Of a stretch of DNA of 64,000 nt, positions 18,104 to 62,515 are shown one piece after another (within the stretch, counting starts at the first letter, position 1; every line of letters starts with the position of its first letter). The notes beneath the pieces are model-generated. The model ran no database searches. It was not told where the DNA came from and was given only the letters and a program-made list of their open reading frames with translations. The translations under genes and the position numbers were made by a program. Source of the DNA: a virus; IMG/VR virus record IMGVR_UViG_3300010157_000047, positions 26,773 to 90,772 of that record, one strand, 5' to 3'.

Positions 18104-21100
18104 TTAACTACATTTGGTTTTAAATATATTATGATTTAATGCATATCTAAAGGATTCTCTTTCTATCTGACTTGCTTTGCCCAAGAAATCTCTTACGGTT
18201 CCAGATAATCCCTGACTATTATTTTCTTCTATTGATTGATATTTTGATGAAATATCTTTTTTTATTATATCTTTCTTTTTAGAATCTCTAGTATCCATTA
18301 ATTCACTAGTAAGTAACATATTTTGAAGCATTGCAGCCTCTAAGATACTTTTTGAATTAACACTATCTCCATTAAAAAATTTAACTATCGAATCAAAAAA
18401 TGATGAAAATTTAGAAAATAATGTTTCTAATAAAGATTTATTTTTTTTAACTTTTAATTCTTTATATGTTTCATCTTTAAGATATACATTATTCATTAAT
18501 TCTTGAATATGCTGTCTTGATGATAGTTCAGATATAAATTCTTCAGGACTAATAAACATATATAATGATCTTTTAAGTTCGGCTTTAGCGTCTTCATCAG
18601 AACCATATAAATCCGCAGCTATCTCAGATATGGAATTAGTTGATTTTCCACTTTTCAATTTATATTTTATCTTACCTTTTTTTACAAAAGTACCATAAAT
18701 TAATTGATTACCTTCATATTCAAGAATTGATCCATTAACAGGATTTACAATTGGCAATTCAGAAACAGCATCTGTTGCATCTGAAAATATCTTATCTACA
18801 CTATTAGCTATTTCGGCAAATTGCTTATCACCACTTTTCCCTAAATTATAAGATTCAACCATTATAGCATGATGAATTTCATGCAATAAAGTTTCTTTAG
18901 CAAAATCAATAGACCCTGTCTGATCCGTCATTTTACTAAGCATTTTAGTATAAATTATTATTTGCTTTTTACCCTTAGTTATATTAAATTCTGCTATATC
19001 TCCAGATTCTTTAATTTCATCGCTATGAATCACATTAATATCACCTATTTTATCTGATAATTTATCAATAATGGCAGACATCCAATCTGAATATGTAGTG
19101 CCAATTTGCCTTATAATTGGCACTAAAGAACGGATATTAGATTGTTCTGAAAGCATCTTTAAAAAGAATGTTTTTGCTATTGTAAAATCTTCAGAAAAAG
19201 AATCTATATCAGTTGTTCCACCAATATAATATTCTTTTGATATGTTGTCAGATACATAATCTGAAAAAAATGAATTATCAAATAATTTTCCAGATTGCTT
19301 TAATTTATTTTCTGCCATTATCTTAGCAGAACCCCTGAGTATTGAATGATCAGATTTTGTATAATATGCAACATATGATCCACCATCTTTTGCATATCCA
19401 CTATACACATAAATATTATTATGTTTTGATTTCTCTGAACTTTTAATAAAAAGAGGTATGTTTGCTAATGAAAATTTAGGACCAACAGATACAATATATT
19501 TACCAATTTTATCATTAAAATTAGATGGCATTGATTTAAATTTCACATCTTGATTTGATACAAAGGAATTTATTTCATGTTGATATTGGGGATTATTTCG
19601 ATAAAATAAATTAATAAATTCATTTACTGATGCATCTGAATTATTTTCATTTACTTTTTTAGCTAATTTATTGTAAAATTCAATATCATTTAATATATCA
19701 GTAGGTATTATTTTTATAAAACCAGATCTTGTCTTATTGCCATTAGTTAATAATTCATAAAATATAATACCTTGTGCAATTTTTCTAATTTTTTCATCTT
19801 GACTCTTAGCCATATCATAAAATCCATCAATTGCAGCTTCCATATCTGCATTATTTATCATGTCTGCATTAAATGATATATGAGTATTAGATTTATTTAT
19901 TGATATAGATCTAATAAATTTATTATTTTTATATTTATTATTTTTTTGCAATAATCGAACATCTCTAGCTAAATATTTACCAAGCTGATTTATATTTGCC
20001 TTAACACCATATTCCTCTGTTACTACTTTTGTGAATATATAAGTTTTATATCCATCTATTGCAGATGATACAAAATTTGAATAATCATTTGAATTCATTT
20101 TATTGTATGCAGACAATTTACTTATAATTGATTTTATTGCAGGATCATCATATCCCATTACGCTATCAATTTCATTAACAACGCCTTTTGCTGTTGCTAA
20201 ATTATTTCCAGTAGTATTTAATCTTCCATTTAATGTTTGAGTATATTTTTGACTATTCGCTAATCCTAAATTGTTATTTCCATGATTTATAGATTCCAAT
20301 AATTTAGAATTTGCAATAGAAGATGTTTTAAATTCCCTGTCAAATGAAGTATTATTATTAAGTGCAAATATTTTTTTTGACATTTTCGATAATGGCATAA
20401 ATATATTATCAATTATATCAATTTGCTTTGTCAAATATTCTAATTTCTCATCATATAATGCATCTACGTTTCCAAGTAATTTTTGTCCTAAATTATATAT
20501 TTCAAATAATTCAGATTCATCATAATTTAATGATTTCATCTTATCAGAAATACTTTGCGCATCAGAAAGTTTTACCCCCAATTTATCAGCAAGTTTCTGT
20601 TTTGCACGTAATACTGATTGACCTATTTCTATATTTTTAATTTCACTAATTATTCCTTTAGAATTTGATTCTATTTTAGAAGACATTTTAACTATCTCCT
20701 GATTAAGGATAGCTGGAACATATTCTAATGATAATGAATTATTTTGATCATCAGATAATATCATTAATGTTGCAGCAATATTGAATGTTAAATCATTTAG
20801 TCCATTAGGAATTAAGTTTCCATTTTTTGCATTATCAATTGATTCAGATAATAATATTACAATATTACGCAAAGAAGTTCTTTCTTCATCGCCTATTGTT
20901 GATGTTGAATATGGATTAATTAAATGCAATTCTAAACCATTTGATCCTCCTGGAGCCCTTAGTTTTTTAATTGATTTTTTAGGGTCAAATTTTATATCTT
21001 TTCTATCTGCAAGAATAACTGATGACATTAATTTTGCATAAATATCTATTCCGCTATTTGCAGATTGCTGAAGTCTGTACTCTTCATTTTGTCGTGCTAT

Positions 21101-32915: not shown

Positions 32916-35900
32916 TTATGCTTTATTATATTTATTTTTAGTGAATAGTCTGGCTAGAATTGATTTGGTATTTTTAGAATCTACCTCAGATTTACGAGCT
33001 GGACTATCGGTATGCATAATTTTTCTACCTTGAGAATCATATCCATATATATTTTCTAGAGTTTTACGTTGTATATTTTCTTTTCCAATTTCACCCAACC
33101 CTGTTGCAGAAGCAGCTAATCCAGACCTCATGTAACGATCTCTATCGGCACGTTGTTTTTCATTGTATTGCTGTGCTGCCATTGCTGCATCAATTCCCTT
33201 GCCTTTTTGTTCAGCATTAAATCTTTGCGCCTGATTAGCTTGCTCTACATTATATTTAGCGGCATCTGATTTAAGCATTGCATTTTTGCCATATATATCA
33301 CTAAGACCCTCAGATGCAGCTCTTCCACTAACCAATGATGCTCCAGTAAGACCTGATCTAGCTGCTGCTCCAGAACCTCCAGACATGCCGCTAAGTGCAT
33401 TGACCGCAGTTCCATATTGACTACCTAATTGCTCTCTTATTGGGGCTGTAGACAATTGTTGTGCAGCAAGAACTGATGGACTTATTGTTGGATAATTAAC
33501 ATTAGTATTCATTGGAATGCCTCGCCTAGCTGTTAATCCCAATAATGCATTGGTTGTAATTGGCATTTTTCTAAGTCTTTCATCTTGCTTGTTAGATGCA
33601 GCAATAGCAGCTAAATTTGCTGAAGAAAGATTTTCTTTAGAAGTATCTGCAGCAGTGCTTTCTGATGGTCGCGATGCATATCTATTCTTCTCAATATTAA
33701 ATCTATTAATATCAGATTGATATGCTAGATTATTTGGGCTGAGTTCTGCAGTTGATTTTATAGGTAAATTATTAGTATCATATTTTTCAGATGCCATATT
33801 TACTAATTTAGGATTAGAGATTAAATTAGATTGCTGATCTGCAATTGAATTTACATTAGATTTTTGTATATTGGATTTTTTACCATTCATTCTATCAAGA
33901 ACACTAGCTGCATATTCATTAATACTAGGCTCATCCCCCTTGCCTTGCTTTCTATTTAATGCTTCATCATTATACATATTAAATCCTTCTCCAGCATACC
34001 AAGCTTTAGCAGCATTTTCAGGACCATATTTATCGTAATATTGTTTTAATTTATATCTAGCAACTTTTTCTTGATTATCTGGTGTCATAGATGAGCCTTT
34101 AGGAAGACCTGCTTCGCTTGACCATTGATCCCAATTATTAGGCATTATTTGATATTTACCAGCAGCACCAGTTCTTTTATTGGTTTCATTATAATCTCCT
34201 CCAGATTCTTGTCCACCCATTGCAGAAACAAATGAGTTAAATTCATCTGGGCTATTGTTGGCATTAGATGAAGACATTCTGGAGCTGTAATCATTAATTC
34301 CTAGATTTGCTGAAGATACTTGTGGTAAAGAAGAAAAGTCAACATTTGATGCAGATTGATTTGTATATTTTTTGTCAGAATTTTTTAATCTTGATCCAGC
34401 TATACCAGCACCCAATAGTCCAGCACCAAGTAGTCCAGCACTAATCTTATCAGATCGCGTCAACTTATCTGGGTTAATAATAGGTTTAGGAGCTGATTCA
34501 ACACTAGCTGCATCAGCAATAGCCGTGTCCGCAGTTCCCATAGAAGTTGCATCTGGGGCTACAGAAGATGCGGTAGTTTCTGGTTGTAATAATGCCCTAT
34601 TTTTAGCAATTCGTTTTTCAGCGGCAAGATAAGATCTGCTTTTAGCAACATCTTCAGCAGCCATTGGAATGCCAGCTGCACGTTCGGCAGCAACATCAAT
34701 AGGAGATTTAACTGAACTTAATTTATCTAATAAAGTATTATATTTTGTAGCAAATGTAGCTGCCTTATTTGCAGCAATTACACTTGGGTTAGGCGCAATT
34801 TTAGGAGCAACATATTTAAGTCTTTCAGCATTACTCCATATGCCAGGAAGAAATGATTTTTCAGCATTTATACCAGGGAGCATTGCAGCCATAGCAGATC
34901 CTTCATTATCTGCAGTATTGCCAGTTACATAATCATATGCACTGCCAATCATTGGTGTAATCATTTTTGCTGCGCCCCATGGACTAGCTGAGGTAGAGCC
35001 AATTGGAGTACTTAGTACTGACTTTACAGTTGGATATGCATTCCCAAATCTATCAAGTAATTCAGAGCTACTAGGAAGAATTGCCCTGGTATTGATAACA
35101 CTTGGATCTTCAAGAGGCTTATCTCCACCAACATCGTACATTTTCCCACCATTAGCATATCCATTATTTAAATATGGATTACTATTTATTTGTTGCTTTT
35201 GTGGAAAATATTCAACTCGACCTTGATTGTATAATGTATTAGGAACCAATAATCCACCTACTGCATATTGATTTGTCTGACCATCAGGCTGATCAAATTC
35301 AATATCACCACCAAGATCATGTTTCCATTTAGCAGCATTACGTGCAAAGTTAGCCATCTGCCTAACATGTGGATCTGGGCTATGTAATGCTTCTGCAGTA
35401 GTTTTTCCAGTTCTTTCCTTATACGCTGTAAATTTACCACGATTTTCAGGTTTAATATGAATGCTGCCACCTGAACCATAATGAACATTTGAGTCTAGCT
35501 GCATGGTAGGAACACTACCGCCTAATGCATATCTATTATCAGGACCCACTTGTAATCCATCAATAGAACCACCAGTCATATATTGATTGTTGGGTGCTAC
35601 ATATCTAGCATTAATGGTACCGCCTAAATCATGATTATTAATATGATTAGATCTAGCAGAATCGATATAGCTTAATGAATCATACATTGTCTGTGGATAG
35701 TTAGCATCAATTCTGCCTCCCATTTCCATTCTACGAATTGTTTCCAATTGCTGATTGGAAACATTAGTAGGATGAACTAATCCGCCAATAGCTTTATACT
35801 CTTTTGCTTCATCGGATAAATCATTATCTATCAATCCCTTATAATATGATCCATTTGAATTAGGATGATCTTCCTTATAATCCTTAATATGATCAACAGC

Positions 35901-36263
35901 AATTGACTTAGCCAATTTAGTTTGACTAGGGAGTCTACCATTTTTATCCATATAATCTCTTATAAAGTCTAATGTAGGAGCATGTTCTTTCTCTACCTTA
36001 ATACCATTTTTTAATTCACGATTCATAGTGATTTGACCACCATTGGACATTTGGCTTTGATCAGATGGCATACCCTGACGAGCAGTTCCATTATTCATGC
36101 CTTGCATGTTTAATTGTGGAGCATTTTGCGGCTCTGGATTTTGACGTTGCTCATGTTCAAATTGCTCTCTACGGAGTGCATCAAGTTCTGCAATGGCAGC
36201 TTTTTTATTATTACCATGCTTAGCAACAATTGCCTTAGCTCTTTGTGCGAAATTAGTATTCAT
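32916..36263 (-). CDS. Virion lytic transglycosylase with Gly-Gly motif repeats
   Basis: The SLT/lysozyme-like domain is at about residues 678-790. MGGQESGGD holds the catalytic Glu686, followed by GAAGKYQIMP, KAWYAGEG and NEYAASVL, all standard for transglycosylases that cut peptidoglycan. The N-terminal 390 residues contain eleven short units of the form x-x-GG-x-(I/V/L/M), for example YMTGGSI, YALGGSV and YAVGGLL. They also contain an ARNAAKWKH motif frequent in phage structural proteins. The middle is Ala-rich. At 1115 residues it is probably an ejected cargo protein that opens the cell wall. It lies 2 nt downstream of another transglycosylase-like protein. Confidence 0.75.
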   Translation of the reverse strand: MNTNFAQRAKAIVAKHGNNKKAAIAELDALRREQFEHEQRQNPEPQNAPQLNMQGMNNGTARQGMPSDQSQMSNGGQITMNRELKNGIKVEKEHAPTLDFIRDYMDKNGRLPSQTKLAKSIAVDHIKDYKEDHPNSNGSYYKGLIDNDLSDEAKEYKAIGGLVHPTNVSNQQLETIRRMEMGGRIDANYPQTMYDSLSYIDSARSNHINNHDLGGTINARYVAPNNQYMTGGSIDGLQVGPDNRYALGGSVPTMQLDSNVHYGSGGSIHIKPENRGKFTAYKERTGKTTAEALHSPDPHVRQMANFARNAAKWKHDLGGDIEFDQPDGQTNQYAVGGLLVPNTLYNQGRVEYFPQKQQINSNPYLNNGYANGGKMYDVGGDKPLEDPSVINTRAILPSSSELLDRFGNAYPTVKSVLSTPIGSTSASPWGAAKMITPMIGSAYDYVTGNTADNEGSAMAAMLPGINAEKSFLPGIWSNAERLKYVAPKIAPNPSVIAANKAATFATKYNTLLDKLSSVKSPIDVAAERAAGIPMAAEDVAKSRSYLAAEKRIAKNRALLQPETTASSVAPDATSMGTADTAIADAASVESAPKPIINPDKLTRSDKISAGLLGAGLLGAGIAGSRLKNSDKKYTNQSASNVDFSSLPQVSSANLGINDYSSRMSSSNANNSPDEFNSFVSAMGGQESGGDYNETNKRTGAAGKYQIMPNNWDQWSSEAGLPKGSSMTPDNQEKVARYKLKQYYDKYGPENAAKAWYAGEGFNMYNDEALNRKQGKGDEPSINEYAASVLDRMNGKKSNIQKSNVNSIADQQSNLISNPKLVNMASEKYDTNNLPIKSTAELSPNNLAYQSDINRFNIEKNRYASRPSESTAADTSKENLSSANLAAIAASNKQDERLRKMPITTNALLGLTARRGIPMNTNVNYPTISPSVLAAQQLSTAPIREQLGSQYGTAVNALSGMSGGSGAAARSGLTGASLVSGRAASEGLSDIYGKNAMLKSDAAKYNVEQANQAQRFNAEQKGKGIDAAMAAQQYNEKQRADRDRYMRSGLAASATGLGEIGKENIQRKTLENIYGYDSQGRKIMHTDSPARKSEVDSKNTKSILARLFTKNKYNKA

Positions 36264-42437: not shown

Positions 42438-43273
42438 TATTGTTTTTTAATTTTCTCAGGATATGCCATATCTCTATAGAATGTTCCGTGAGGTCTATCA
42501 TTAAGAACTAATTTGTTCATAGTGTTACTCAATGCTTCTCTACCATCTAATGAAAGCAATGCTGCATGTGATTGAGACTGACCAATATACCAGCAATATT
42601 CTTTTTCAGCTCTTTCATATGCACGAATAGTATCTTTTCCAAGATCTGATAAAATACCAAAATATTGTGATTTAATATAATTTTCAATTGCTTTTTCTAC
42701 AGTAGGATCATTAGGTATCATAGGAACACCTTCTTCATCTACCATTATGCCATCATATGATATATCAATTGTTCCAACTGGAAAAGATGCATAAATATAA
42801 TTACCATTAAACTTATATGAATTTACTGGAGATATACCTTCAACATTTGATTTATTGTAAAATTCATGAAATGGATCTGTAGCCTCATACATAGGTTGAT
42901 ATTGCTCGCCTATAGTCTGTGGATTATCAATTATATTGATGCTTGGATAAGCCCATACTCCATCTTCTGGATAACTATTTATTGTATTGGGATCTGCTGG
43001 TAAAAATGTCCACGTTGGAAATGATTTATCAGAATCCCATCCTCTAACTACACGCCTTGCTTGCTGCATATAAACCATATCTTCTGGTTTGGTGCATCTA
43101 TAATCTTCTATGCCAAGTCTCATTATTTTACGCTGCATAAATGTAGCAGATCCAATCAATCGAATAACATCGACTGACCATACAATAGCAGATTCATATG
43201 GAAGATCTGTGCATAATGGATGACGCATCACCCTATCAATAACAGACTTTAAAGAAATATAACCTGAGTACAT
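42437..43273 (-). CDS. Tail ring/connector protein
   Basis: This 278-residue protein is encoded between the 176-residue protein and the muzzle gene, with 1-nt spacing or overlap. The N-terminal 100 residues are mixed helical (SLKSVIDRVMRHPLC, AIVWSVDVIRLIG), and the middle is Pro/Tyr-rich beta. In crAss-like phages a protein of this size and place is one of the stacked ring proteins linking portal and muzzle. No enzymatic motif is seen. Confidence 0.6.
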   Translation of the reverse strand: MYSGYISLKSVIDRVMRHPLCTDLPYESAIVWSVDVIRLIGSATFMQRKIMRLGIEDYRCTKPEDMVYMQQARRVVRGWDSDKSFPTWTFLPADPNTINSYPEDGVWAYPSINIIDNPQTIGEQYQPMYEATDPFHEFYNKSNVEGISPVNSYKFNGNYIYASFPVGTIDISYDGIMVDEEGVPMIPNDPTVEKAIENYIKSQYFGILSDLGKDTIRAYERAEKEYCWYIGQSQSHAALLSLDGREALSNTMNKLVLNDRPHGTFYRDMAYPEKIKKQ

Positions 43274-43274
43274 A

Positions 43275-43805
43275 CTATTTTGTTTTTGTTTCTAGTGAAT
43301 CAAATTCACCAATTGTTATTTGATTTGATATATTCCTTTTAATTGCTCTATTTATTTGAGCAGTATAAAATAATCTGTTACGGAATAAGCATCCTCTTTT
43401 ACGATATATTATTGTAAATATATATCCAGAGCTATGTTGATTTGTGTGATATACAAATTGTATTTTTTTAAGTTCTGGATAATCAAGCCACAATGATTTT
43501 GTTGCACTCCAATCTATTGGTCTTTTAATATATGGGTCACCATTTTCATCATATTTTAATGTTGGCTTATATTTTCTAGTTATTATCCTTCCAAGATTAT
43601 GTGGCAATTTAAAATCATATTTTTCATCTGCCATTGCATTAGCAATACCAATAAGAATATCATCTATTAAGCTATTGTAATTTTTATATTCCAAATCATG
43701 CTTAGTATCTTTATAAGTATTATGATAATTCTTATAATAATCCCTTATACCATAATCACTTATTACCTTGTGCGTTCTGATCAATCCTTTCCTCTGTCGC
43801 ATCAT
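43275..43805 (-). CDS. Structural/connector protein, basic
   Basis: This is a 176-residue, strongly basic and Tyr-rich protein. Its start lies 50 nt inside the preceding gene, and the next Met is at residue 58, so the long overlap is probably genuine. It ends 1 nt before the ring protein gene. Conserved position in the connector block suggests a virion or tail-assembly role; no domain is recognised. Confidence 0.55.
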   Translation of the reverse strand: MMRQRKGLIRTHKVISDYGIRDYYKNYHNTYKDTKHDLEYKNYNSLIDDILIGIANAMADEKYDFKLPHNLGRIITRKYKPTLKYDENGDPYIKRPIDWSATKSLWLDYPELKKIQFVYHTNQHSSGYIFTIIYRKRGCLFRNRLFYTAQINRAIKRNISNQITIGEFDSLETKTK

Positions 43806-47996: not shown

Positions 47997-49511
47997 TTAT
48001 GCTAACTCAACTGGAATTAGACTAGCCGTACGTGACGGATCTAATACCAATGCACCTAAAGTACACTGTTTGTGGATGACTGCCTTGTCTTCATCAAAAG
48101 ACATATTGTCATTATTAATTGCTCCAGTAAATGGATTCCTGAATCCCCATTGGTATCCACGAATTTCTTCTTGACCTTTAATTTTTGCAATCTGAATGTT
48201 AGGCTCTTCCATACTACCAATATAGAGAATATCATAACGATAAGACTCTGCAGGCATGATAACTGAACCACGGAAATCAGAAGCATAAATTTTATTACGT
48301 ACTGGATCATCATAGAAAGGATCAACCTCAACAGATACTATTACACCGTTAGGAGCACGCCATTCAACAAACTGGAATCCAGCCGCAAGTGCGTTATCAT
48401 GTAGAGGAGATTTAACACTAGATAATGATTGTCCATTTGTAAAACGAGATCCAGTGGTTACATTGCCTAACCATCCAGTTGCAATGTCAGTAATTGCTTT
48501 GTGGAATTGAGCAGCTCCGCCTTCACCTGTTCTGAGAACAAATCTACGTTCTCCCATGCCAAGCTTAGAGTGAGATAAACTATATAGCATATCTTCAATA
48601 AGTTTGATCGAGAATTTTCCGTAGAACTGAGTATTTGAAACTTCCATTTGCTCACGAATACCAGAACCCATTTTAATCACATTACCTGATTTACCAATGT
48701 TATGGTACTCACCAGCTTGATCACGGTTAGTACGTGAATAAATAATAGCATGATTTTTCTCTTCAGAAAATTCTTCTTCTAGCTTGAAGTCTACGTAATG
48801 CATCCAACCATTCATGATTGATTTGTTACCAGCTTTATCAACAACTGGAATACCCATTTGGATTTTCATGTCATCAATGTTACCAGGCACTTCATGTTTA
48901 ATACGGATAGTGGTCCACTCATTACGCATAGAAGTAGGAGAGGTGAAATGAATATCACCAACTTGGCGAGACATTTTTTCTTCTACTGGAGAGAAATCTT
49001 TACTGAAACGCTTTCCAGCAATAAGTTCAGAACCAGGCATACCACCAGGAACATAACCTAAAAGCTCAACAGTGTAAACAGTGTATTGACCCTCAATTCT
49101 ACCATCTCCAATAACGCGCAATGGATACAATTCATTCTTTTCTCCAACGATTTGATTGCCATCAGCAAACCAATCTTCTTCAAACAATACTTCAAAACGA
49201 TTACCAGCTGCACCAATACCAGTATCACCTACTAATACAGTGCTACCATTAATACGTGCGCTTGCAAGCTTGATGTTCCTACGAGAAGAACCGATTAGTT
49301 GCCAAACAAATTCATCCGAAGTGTCGAAGAATTTTGTTGGAAATTGCGAGAGATAATTCTCCAACGACTTACCACGATTATAGGCCAATAGCTGAATCAT
49401 ATTTCTAGCTGCTGCTTGTGGTTGCCCACGGAAGATGGCCCTAACATGGTTTTTGTCGGTAAGTCCCTGCCACGCTTTGGGGGCAGTCATTTGAAATTTA
49501 CCTAAACTCAT
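47997..49511 (-). CDS. Major capsid protein (crAss-like, HK97 fold)
   Basis: The 504 residues match the length and N-terminal style (MSLGKFQMTAPKAWQGLTDKN) of crAss-like major capsid proteins. Other familiar stretches include RNMIQLLAYNRGKSLENYL, EDWFADGNQIVGEKNELYP and a C-terminal PSRTASLIP. It follows a scaffold-like gene and is itself followed by a strong terminator, as expected for the most abundant virion protein. Less AT-biased codon choice also suggests high expression. The HK97 fold is known for the family, not visible directly. Confidence 0.85.
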   Translation of the reverse strand: MSLGKFQMTAPKAWQGLTDKNHVRAIFRGQPQAAARNMIQLLAYNRGKSLENYLSQFPTKFFDTSDEFVWQLIGSSRRNIKLASARINGSTVLVGDTGIGAAGNRFEVLFEEDWFADGNQIVGEKNELYPLRVIGDGRIEGQYTVYTVELLGYVPGGMPGSELIAGKRFSKDFSPVEEKMSRQVGDIHFTSPTSMRNEWTTIRIKHEVPGNIDDMKIQMGIPVVDKAGNKSIMNGWMHYVDFKLEEEFSEEKNHAIIYSRTNRDQAGEYHNIGKSGNVIKMGSGIREQMEVSNTQFYGKFSIKLIEDMLYSLSHSKLGMGERRFVLRTGEGGAAQFHKAITDIATGWLGNVTTGSRFTNGQSLSSVKSPLHDNALAAGFQFVEWRAPNGVIVSVEVDPFYDDPVRNKIYASDFRGSVIMPAESYRYDILYIGSMEEPNIQIAKIKGQEEIRGYQWGFRNPFTGAINNDNMSFDEDKAVIHKQCTLGALVLDPSRTASLIPVELA

Positions 49512-49546
49512 AGTTAATTAATTAAAATTTAAAAAAAAAATAGTTA

Positions 49547-50731: not shown

Positions 50732-51307
50732 TTATTTTGATATAAATTTAGATATAATGCTAACAGGACTAAAGCTGCTCAATTTTAAGACAACAATAAT
50801 TAACAATAATATAATCTCTGCTATTAAAATCCAAAATGCATATTTATATACTATTGGTATATATTTATCTTTTACAATTATTGTAGATTGAGAAGATTTA
50901 TTTACCAGTGCATTTTTTAATAAAATAGAATCTTGCACAGATTTAATTATACTATCTTTGTTTACATATCCAGTAGTAACTAATTTGGAATTATGTATAA
51001 ATGATGATACAGTAATTATTCCTTTTTTAGAAACAACTAAATTCATTTGAGCTCCAAGAGAATTTACTGTAACAGAATTATTTATTATTGCAGTATCTTT
51101 TGGTAAAGCAATACCAATATCTTTTGTTACATATATTGTAGTATCCCTGTATTTTATTTCAGTATTAGTAGCAGTAACACATATCTTAGAGAATGCTTCA
51201 CAATTACGCTGTATTCTAGACACTGTGAGACATGATTGCATGCTAAATAATATGATAGCATAGAACATGAAATATAATGCCTTAAATCGCTTAATTTTAC
51301 AATTCAT
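50732..51307 (-). CDS. Probable u-spanin (lipoprotein with C-terminal membrane anchor)
   Basis: A hydrophobic signal ends in FSMQSC, giving a likely lipidated Cys26. A long beta/coil periplasmic part follows, and a C-terminal helix FWILIAEIILLLIIVVLKL (about 158-176) would sit in the inner membrane. This arrangement, outer-membrane lipid at one end and inner-membrane helix at the other, is that of unimolecular spanins, which fuse the two membranes in the last step of lysis. At 191 residues the length is plausible for crossing the periplasm. The lipobox is not ideal. A neighbouring membrane-anchored coiled-coil gene fits a lysis cassette. Confidence 0.6.
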   Translation of the reverse strand: MNCKIKRFKALYFMFYAIILFSMQSCLTVSRIQRNCEAFSKICVTATNTEIKYRDTTIYVTKDIGIALPKDTAIINNSVTVNSLGAQMNLVVSKKGIITVSSFIHNSKLVTTGYVNKDSIIKSVQDSILLKNALVNKSSQSTIIVKDKYIPIVYKYAFWILIAEIILLLIIVVLKLSSFSPVSIISKFISK

Positions 51308-51317
51308 AATATATGTA

Positions 51318-51677
51318 TTATTTGTTATTTTTCAATATTAATAAATCTAATTTATGCTCAATTCTTTTTGTAGCATCAATAACTAAGTTTACTTCAGATC
51401 TATCTGCCTTATTAAATTCAACTCTTTTGATATAATCCATCGCAATATCAATTCTTTCTTTATGGTTTTCATTATAATTATCCATAAATTCATTAACATC
51501 TGATCTTATACGTCCAGATTCTTCAAGCATCTCTCGCCTATGTTCTTCCTGATTAAATTTCATAGCTTTTAATTTTTCTTCCATTACAGATTGAGTAACT
51601 TTTATGGCTATGACGGTTGAAGCTGCACCAGCAACTATTAATGCAGATAGTTCCTGCACAAATTGAGAGTAATCCAT
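51318..51677 (-). CDS. Membrane-anchored coiled-coil protein, possible holin
   Basis: One transmembrane helix lies near the N-terminus (FVQELSALIVAGAASTVIAI, residues about 6-25), followed by about 85 residues of charged heptad-like helix (EEKLKAMKFNQEEHRREMLEE and onward). The next gene, 10 nt away, is the u-spanin candidate, so a lysis role such as holin is reasonable. A structural role cannot be excluded. Length is 119 residues. Confidence 0.5.
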   Translation of the reverse strand: MDYSQFVQELSALIVAGAASTVIAIKVTQSVMEEKLKAMKFNQEEHRREMLEESGRIRSDVNEFMDNYNENHKERIDIAMDYIKRVEFNKADRSEVNLVIDATKRIEHKLDLLILKNNK

Positions 51678-60946: not shown

Positions 60947-61246
60947 TTATTTTAATTTTCTAGTATATAATTTAAATGCTATAACAATTTTTCTAAAAAA
61001 TTCTGATATTGCATTAGACTTAGATTTTATTTTAACTTTAATTTGTTTTTCTTCTTCAATAAGATCTTTTATCAATTCAACTTTCCATGAAGAAATATTG
61101 GATTCATCTTTTTTAATATTATCAGATATCAATTTAGATTTATCTTCAACCTTCTTAATTGTTTTTTCGGTAAATATTTCTGCATTGATAACAGATTTTT
61201 CAACATTATCAATAATAACTTTTGTTTTGTCTGTAAGTTTGCTCAT
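60947..61246 (-). CDS. Small Lys-rich coiled-coil protein
   Basis: A 99-residue protein dominated by Lys, Glu, Ile and Asn in a long helix, with an aromatic basic end (FFRKIVIAFKLYTRKLK). It lies 6 nt after the true end of the frameshifted endolysin gene and before the fibres. It could regulate lysis or act as a fibre chaperone; no evidence decides this. Confidence 0.5.
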   Translation of the reverse strand: MSKLTDKTKVIIDNVEKSVINAEIFTEKTIKKVEDKSKLISDNIKKDESNISSWKVELIKDLIEEEKQIKVKIKSKSNAISEFFRKIVIAFKLYTRKLK

Positions 61247-61252
61247 AGGATT

Positions 61253-62097
61253 TTATTTTATATAACGTGAAACTGCATAAATTTTATCTTTACTAATCTT
61301 CTTTCTTCCAACTCTATCGCCATTCCTAGATCCATTTCCACTAGTATTACCAGCTTGAATAATCCAATAGCCACTTTTATCATAAGAATAAAAAAATCCT
61401 ACATGACCTACTCTTTTTAAATATGAATAGTATTCTGTAAAAACATCTCCTGGTAAGGGATCAATACTATTTTTTTTTTAAGTTGCCATATAATATCTTT
61501 AGGATTTGCATATGCTGGAGACCATCCGCTATTGGGATTTTTAATGCTAAAAGATTTCATATCATAAGCAACATATGCACCGCACCAACTAGCAGGTGGA
61601 GTTACCCCAACAGACTTTAAAAATACATCCACCTCTGGACCTCTATTAGGATCCGTTTCACGTATGTTTAACTGAGAGTCAAGTAGATTTATTAATTTAC
61701 TGCGAACATTTGGATTTTCGTCTCCTTTGGCGCTATAAACAAGTCCTGCTATTAATGCAAATACAATAAATAATTTAAATGCATAATCAATTTGTTTAGA
61801 CGGATTCAATTGTTCAAATTTATGATAAAATGCATCTGTAAATACATTATATACTTTAGGCAATGTAATTCTAAGCATAAGATGTGTAGACCAAAATATC
61901 ATAGTATAAGTTAATAATCCATATAGTAATGTTTCAAATTGAGATGCAGGATCGAAAAATGCACTACTAGTAAATATTGATTGAAGAATCCTATTAGCCA
62001 ATAAAAACAATATTGCAATTAATGGTATTAATATTAGTTCTTCTTTAAATATTTTATAAAAATTACTATTGAAAATTTTATCTAAAATGTTTTTCAT
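61253..62097 (-). CDS. Membrane-anchored CHAP-type endolysin requiring a -1 frameshift
   Basis: Three hydrophobic helices (about residues 20-41, 57-78, 105-124) precede a CHAP-like amidase/peptidase domain. PNRGPEVDVFLKSVG and ASWCGAYVAY give the catalytic Cys172. In frame 0 the gene stops at 61417 after A10 (minus strand, positions 61479-61470). In the -1 frame the domain continues as DPLPGDVFTEYY, GHVGFFYS (catalytic His, codon 61405-61403) and WIIQAGNTSG, stopping at 61253. So the complete enzyme needs a -1 shift, polymerase slippage, or one more A than the sequence shows. It cuts host peptidoglycan at lysis; the membrane part may act as a built-in anchor or holin. Confidence 0.65.
61470..61479 (-). 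other. A10 slippery tract inside the endolysin gene
   Basis: Ten A on the minus strand follow CAACTT. Reading AAA AAA AAA ATA keeps frame 0 and reaches a stop 13 codons later. Slipping back one base gives AAT AGT ATT GAT and joins the rest of the catalytic domain. Confidence 0.6.
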
Positions 62098-62107
62098 ATA
62101 TGAGTTT

Positions 62108-62515
62108 TTAAGTTAATATTTCATTTGCCCTTCCAGTGTTTAATAATCCAATTGATTCAAGATATTGCAATCCTGATATTGTTAATTGATTCTGCAAATC
62201 TATACTCTCAGATAGTTTAAACTTATCTAACCATATTTCAAGTAGCACAGATGTTTTTGCTTCAGTATATATTCCTACTAATTCAGCATCTGTAAATCGT
62301 GCCAAAAATTCTAACTTAGATAATGGTTGAATAGGATCAATTATTTTAGGTATTTCACAAACAATAAAATCTCCTTCTTCAAAATTACCTCCATTTCCTT
62401 CCCTATAAATAACTTCTTTATATCCATTATCTATTGCAAATTGTGTAGCATCACCTAAAATATTAGATGGTTGAACAAATTCTACTATTGATCCATTAAT
62501 TAATTTTGCTCTCAT
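62108..62515 (-). CDS. Tail-fibre-associated small protein
   Basis: The 135 residues open MRAKLINGSIVEFV and contain the helical block LSKLEFLARFTDAELVGIY, followed by EIWLDKFKL and LLNTGRANEIL. This pattern is widespread beside phage fibre and baseplate genes and is thought to be a fibre assembly helper or small tail protein. It sits between the LamG-like protein and the endolysin, consistent with that. Confidence 0.6.
   Translation of the reverse strand: MRAKLINGSIVEFVQPSNILGDATQFAIDNGYKEVIYREGNGGNFEEGDFIVCEIPKIIDPIQPLSKLEFLARFTDAELVGIYTEAKTSVLLEIWLDKFKLSESIDLQNQLTISGLQYLESIGLLNTGRANEILT

Follow-up and report, generated by a model that had tools for sequence, protein, structure and literature searches.

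An apparently split three-helix, CHAP-like endolysin gene at an A10 tract of a crAss-like phage

Within the window analyzed herein, a stretch of 64,000 nucleotides that forms part of a virus record of 90,772 bases, a predicted endolysin gene on the minus strand appears to be broken into two reading frames at a run of ten A (T10 on the plus strand), which raises the question of whether the break is a device of the phage, a lesion, or an artifact of the recorded tract length. Direct reading of the DNA confirmed what a sequence-only reading had described, namely, that the catalytic Cys lies before the run and the catalytic His after it in a different frame, and that the -1 frame proceeds uninterrupted to a stop 6 nt before the next gene. 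The 226-aa ORF holding the Cys (61417–62097) crosses the tract as CTT AAA AAA AAA ATA GTA, with the tract phased AAA AAA AAA A, and reaches its stop at 61417. When the final A of the third AAA is read a second time, the -1 frame gives NSIDPLPGDVFTEYYSYLKRVGHVGFFYSYDKSGYWIIQAGNTSGNGSRNGDRVGRKKISKDKIYAVSRYIK; this frame, which includes the His and a GNTSG motif, is open for 72 codons until its stop at 61253–61255, upstream of the ATG at 61246. The features of this region and of the lysis genes are summarized in Table 1.

Table 1. Positions of the split gene, its neighbors, and the candidate lysis genes in the window
Feature	Position	Strand	Description
3TM-CHAP endolysin, part one	61480..62097	-	206 codons up to the tract; CHAP Cys half (PASWCGAYVAYDM) preceded by three hydrophobic helices
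A10 tract	61470..61479	-	Variable Lys-rich linker separating the halves of the CHAP domain
0-frame tail from the tract start	61417..61479	-	KKKIVLIPYQEMFLQNTIHI; stop at 61417
-1 continuation	61253..61471	-	72 codons plus stop; CHAP His half (VGHVGFF) with the AGNTSGNGSRNGD motif
AT-rich 9-bp inverted repeat	61427..61471	-	AATAGTATT / AATACTATT, directly after the tract
Downstream gene	60947..61246	-	99-aa charged, coiled-coil-like protein; no function assigned
Gene just upstream of 3TM-CHAP	62108..62515	-	Homolog two genes upstream of 3TM-CHAP in L037/L120
Candidate unimolecular spanin	50732..51307	-	Lipobox-like SMQSC and C-terminal hydrophobic helix; by reading, no family match
Candidate holin or releasin-like protein	51318..51677	-	One N-terminal hydrophobic helix and coiled coil; function inferred; adjoins the candidate spanin

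The frame break coincides exactly with the longest in-gene homopolymer of the record. In this AT-rich genome such a run is not unusual, since two A/T runs of at least 10 were observed in the record against approximately three expected under an order-2 Markov model. The other one (49531–49540) is intergenic, just upstream of the start of the major capsid gene (47997–49511, minus strand). Two A9 runs occur inside other genes of the phage, and both are in frame.

When read through, the two halves yield a protein with three membrane helices, assigned on inspection of the sequence and on analogy to a modeled homolog, followed by a CHAP/TIGR02594 peptidase domain, whose Cys motif PASWCGAYV lies in the first half and whose His and AGNTSGNGSRNGD motifs lie in the second. 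A Pfam search with each half singly gave no match, and the joined soluble part matched TIGR02594 of NCBIfam (E = 4e-5; 23.9 bits, below the curated cut-off of 70.55) and Pfam CHAP PF05257 (E = 0.01; 16.7 bits, below the cut-off of 26). In addition, 80% of the joined domain could be aligned with the CHAP protein from Microcystis phage Mae-JY24 (E = 2e-10), and PHROG endolysin family 9589 was matched weakly. Because the profile scores are below the curated cut-offs, the domain is termed CHAP-like here, though all nine full-length homologs described below match both CHAP and TIGR02594 with E of 0.01 or better. In the alignments, Cys172 and His232 of the joined protein were invariant across the family, and their order and spacing were right for CHAP/TIGR02594. 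The protein thus shares with endolysins of this type, such as that of Mae-JY24, the catalytic Cys and His, the EGNT/AGNT-GSR-G motif and the spacing between motifs, but differs from them in the three membrane helices preceding the domain, in its sub-cut-off scores, and in the A10 interruption of the recorded sequence. A structural model of the homolog L116 (pLDDT 73.6) had the CHAP endolysins LysIME-EF1 and LysK as its best PDB matches, which were weak (E = 0.04–0.19). In our reading of the charges, the N-terminus would be located inside and the CHAP domain outside. The predicted endolysin would act as a peptidase that cuts peptidoglycan.

Full-length alignment searches of viral contigs and Bacteroidota genomes provided nine distinct full-length 3TM-CHAP genes (L116, L117 = L123, L118, L119 = L121, L120, L122, L125, L126, and L127, the last from the isolate Carboxylicivirga marina), as well as a further fragment outside the nine (L124), which a contig edge cuts off before the tract site. 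These genes of Bacteroidota phages and prophages (L116, L125, L127, and others) have the same full-length architecture as the joined protein, with 39–53% identity in the first alignment and, to L116, 71–73% in the CHAP domain. All nine are single open frames without a run of seven or more A at the tract position, which in them is a linker variable in length and sequence, whereas the present gene is split by A10. A comparison of the tract among relatives, an approach suggested by the sequence-only reading, thus turned up no counterpart. Likewise, the Cys and His halves were in one frame in all 80 CHAP loci listed, which were returned by an alignment search with the CHAP part (70 judged by pattern and 10 by eye). 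Scans of viral contigs with the first half, with the joined protein, and with the exact tract-flanking DNA allowing a variable A length found nothing, in a collection from which records very close to the window may be missing, and the 3TM-CHAP gene was absent from 15 of 15 records related through the major capsid protein (MCP).

Both halves aligned with the single-frame homologs without a large gap, and no similarity of the 0-frame tail KKKIVLIPYQEMFLQNTIHI to any homolog was found. Identity to L116, the closest homolog, was 55/75 (73%) before the tract and 51/72 (71%) after it, and the 72-aa second half alone matched the closest homolog with 73% over 70 aa (E = 2e-33 in the small homolog set). 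Third positions accounted for 51 of 80 changes relative to L116 before the tract and 47 of 81 after it, and pN/pS was 0.20 before and 0.30 after, both rough values since synonymous sites are saturated and the L116 branch contributed some of the divergence. Nothing in these comparisons suggests a long release of the second half from selection. Its proposed maintenance by selection was thus borne out, with the qualification that this holds until recently.

The sequence-only reading had raised programmed frameshifting that limits active lysin. An evolved frameshift or slippage of this kind would additionally make a catalytically dead membrane form, which may act in timing. Consistent with such a switch, the slippery heptamer A AAA AAA stands in the right 0-frame phase, there is a 9-bp inverted repeat after the tract, the short form would retain all three membrane helices, and the tssM precedent indicates that both forms can be needed (PMC4256274). 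A programmed event is judged mainly by conservation of its slippery site, however, and this is absent here: none of the nine homologs is split or carries the tract, and none of the 80 CHAP loci is split. The stem also adjoins the tract with almost no spacer. Its fold was no better than those of shuffled sequences (z of -0.3 to -0.9, in a test of pseudoknot-free structures), so that the stem-loop was rejected as a frameshift stimulator, and inspection of the 40 nt upstream of the tract showed no Shine–Dalgarno-like element. Given homologs with neither split nor A run at the site, the lack of a significant stimulator, and the variable linker, programmed frameshifting is thus unsupported, and we regard it as very improbable. 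Equally improbable in our estimation is that A10 is real and used, with slippage setting the ratio of the dead three-helix protein to the full CHAP lysin.

Unprogrammed slippage carries more weight. With a real and fixed A10, it could give a minority of full-length lysin, either by RNA polymerase adding an A on some transcripts or by ribosomes slipping -1 on A AAA AAA, which is correctly phased for this shift; the tract would then be a tolerated lesion rather than an evolved switch. The tract is long enough in view of the A11 tract in tssM of Citrobacter rodentium, from which transcriptional slippage yields 20–25% full-length protein (PMC4256274), and of nine A/T, the length at which signs of selection against slippage emerge in many bacteria (PMC1088944). 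As in the C. rodentium tssM1 gene (PMC4256274), poly-A interrupts the gene and leaves the missing C-terminal domain in another frame; there, both slippage and the need for the two forms were demonstrated experimentally, whereas slippage in the present gene is hypothetical and its A10 stands in an otherwise unsplit gene family. The undecayed second half and the lack of a recognized replacement lysin are also in line with unprogrammed slippage. Against it, the two other phage genes with in-frame A9 are places where slippage would be harmful, so that slippage may be weak in the host, and the outcome would vary with the polymerase of the host. Of the slippage claim in the sequence-only reading, the unprogrammed form thus stands as our second-ranked account, albeit an unlikely one, and the programmed form does not.

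The MCP of the phage is 54–59% identical to those of the Crassvirales phages crAss001, cr108_1, and cr111_1, and one protein carries the crAss_CARG1 domain PF25725 (E = 5e-27); by these capsid and cargo proteins, the phage is classified as crAss-like (Crassvirales). An exact 123-bp repeat at the record ends (1–123 and 90650–90772) indicates a circular or circularly permuted genome covered once by the record, and a giant fiber-like gene spans these ends. In three near kin (G001, G002, and G004; MCP 88–90%), a lysin gene is flanked by a gene for a spanin-like lipoprotein on one side and by one for a small protein with a single helix on the other, and the lysin, by family names assigned on reading the sequences, is GH19-like in G001 and GH24-like in G002 and G004. 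Here the spanin and one-helix genes abut (51307/51318), leaving the lysin slot of the near kin empty (window 50732–51677 compared with L022 3386–5576, L020 3820–5541, and L024 5564–7377). Searches of the record with the lysin proteins of the near kin and with the Phage_lysozyme, Amidase_2, and Peptidase_M15_3 models found no such lysin elsewhere; the search with a GH19 model was run without a positive control. With the slot empty and no other found, 3TM-CHAP is left as the sole dedicated lysin recognized, a point that, like the three N-terminal membrane helices, was absent from the sequence-only reading.

A recent null allele with a real A10 would leave lysis to other proteins, such as an SLT domain or the lysin of another phage or prophage. 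There is indeed an SLT transglycosylase domain at approximately residues 678–763 of a 1115-aa structural protein (gene 32916–36263), but it forms part of a large structural-block protein and is not a stand-alone lysin. As the second half is undecayed and all near kin retain a dedicated lysin, we consider loss of the gene highly unlikely.

The product of the gene just upstream of 3TM-CHAP resembles that of L037 1363–1812 (35% over 74 aa, E = 9e-9), on an unrelated phage contig, and the proximity of this homolog to the 3TM-CHAP gene of that contig suggests a shared module. Small proteins with one helix and a coiled coil are encoded beside lysin genes at L036 2295–2567 and L125 2142–2483, as at window 51318–51677, and resemble the releasin of phage Mu in layout. 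Mu gp22 is a SAR, membrane-anchored endolysin working with the releasin gp25 (PMC9239132); the present gene similarly suggests lysin delivery through membrane segments, beside small one-helix membrane proteins, but Mu gp22 has one SAR segment in place of three helices and a CHAP domain.

Taken together, the account that we favor, at somewhat better than even chances, is that of an ordinary single-frame gene whose A10 is either an error of the record (a consensus or assembly homopolymer indel) or a length variant unfixed in the population; the plain single-base error named by the sequence-only reading is thus, jointly with such a variant, the likeliest explanation. The weights given to the four readings are matters of judgement, not computed values. 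In the proposed scheme, the family enzyme would be produced from one reading frame, with its CHAP (NlpC/P60-type) peptidase domain, placed after the three membrane helices, facing the periplasm, where it would cut peptidoglycan. The A tract in the variable Lys-rich linker would be off by one base in the record, giving the apparent split, and the phage itself would make one full-length enzyme. An intact enzyme is to be expected because no other dedicated lysin was recognized in the circular genome. No other frame break was found in the 64.8 kb of the contig for which relatives offered a comparison. In the GeneTack survey, singleton frame-split genes with intact homologs of the fused product were expected to be mostly sequencing errors (PMC3711429), and it is on this view and the unconserved slippery site that we infer an error or unfixed variant as the cause.

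Several observations count against an error of the record. Apart from the tract, the record appears generally accurate; the A9 tracts in two other genes are in frame; and real slippage is known at A10 length. The 123-bp end repeat also hints, in our inference, at short-read assembly, which seldom leaves homopolymer indels in the consensus. An apparent second frame break at L026 5445–6250 was rejected as evidence of a contig error, as the same -1 overlap is present in G001 and G004. At this early gene (contig 19445–20250, outside the window) and at L128 8399–9496 and L131 11482–12519, an open -1 frame overlaps the 3'-end, and in the three crAss-like phages it ends in a C-terminal EDFELESR (EDFEMEGR in G004), with the 0 frame there unconserved; it may represent a small overlapping gene or a case of recoding. 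The sole frame-split match of a contig-wide scan (window 43128–43365) is an ORF that runs counter to the annotated gene order, on the other strand, and was judged to be a shadow ORF.

Three-helix CHAP lysins form a family that crAss-like phages share with other phages or prophages of Bacteroidota, and the exchange of the lysin slot among close crAss-like relatives (GH19, GH24, or empty) points to lysin swapping. If A10 were used, the lysis timing of a crAss-like phage would depend on a homopolymer, and slippage, if real, would be, to our knowledge, an unusual way of limiting an endolysin. As a caution, one homopolymer base can make the only recognizable lysin of a crAss-like phage seem split or missing in automatic annotation.
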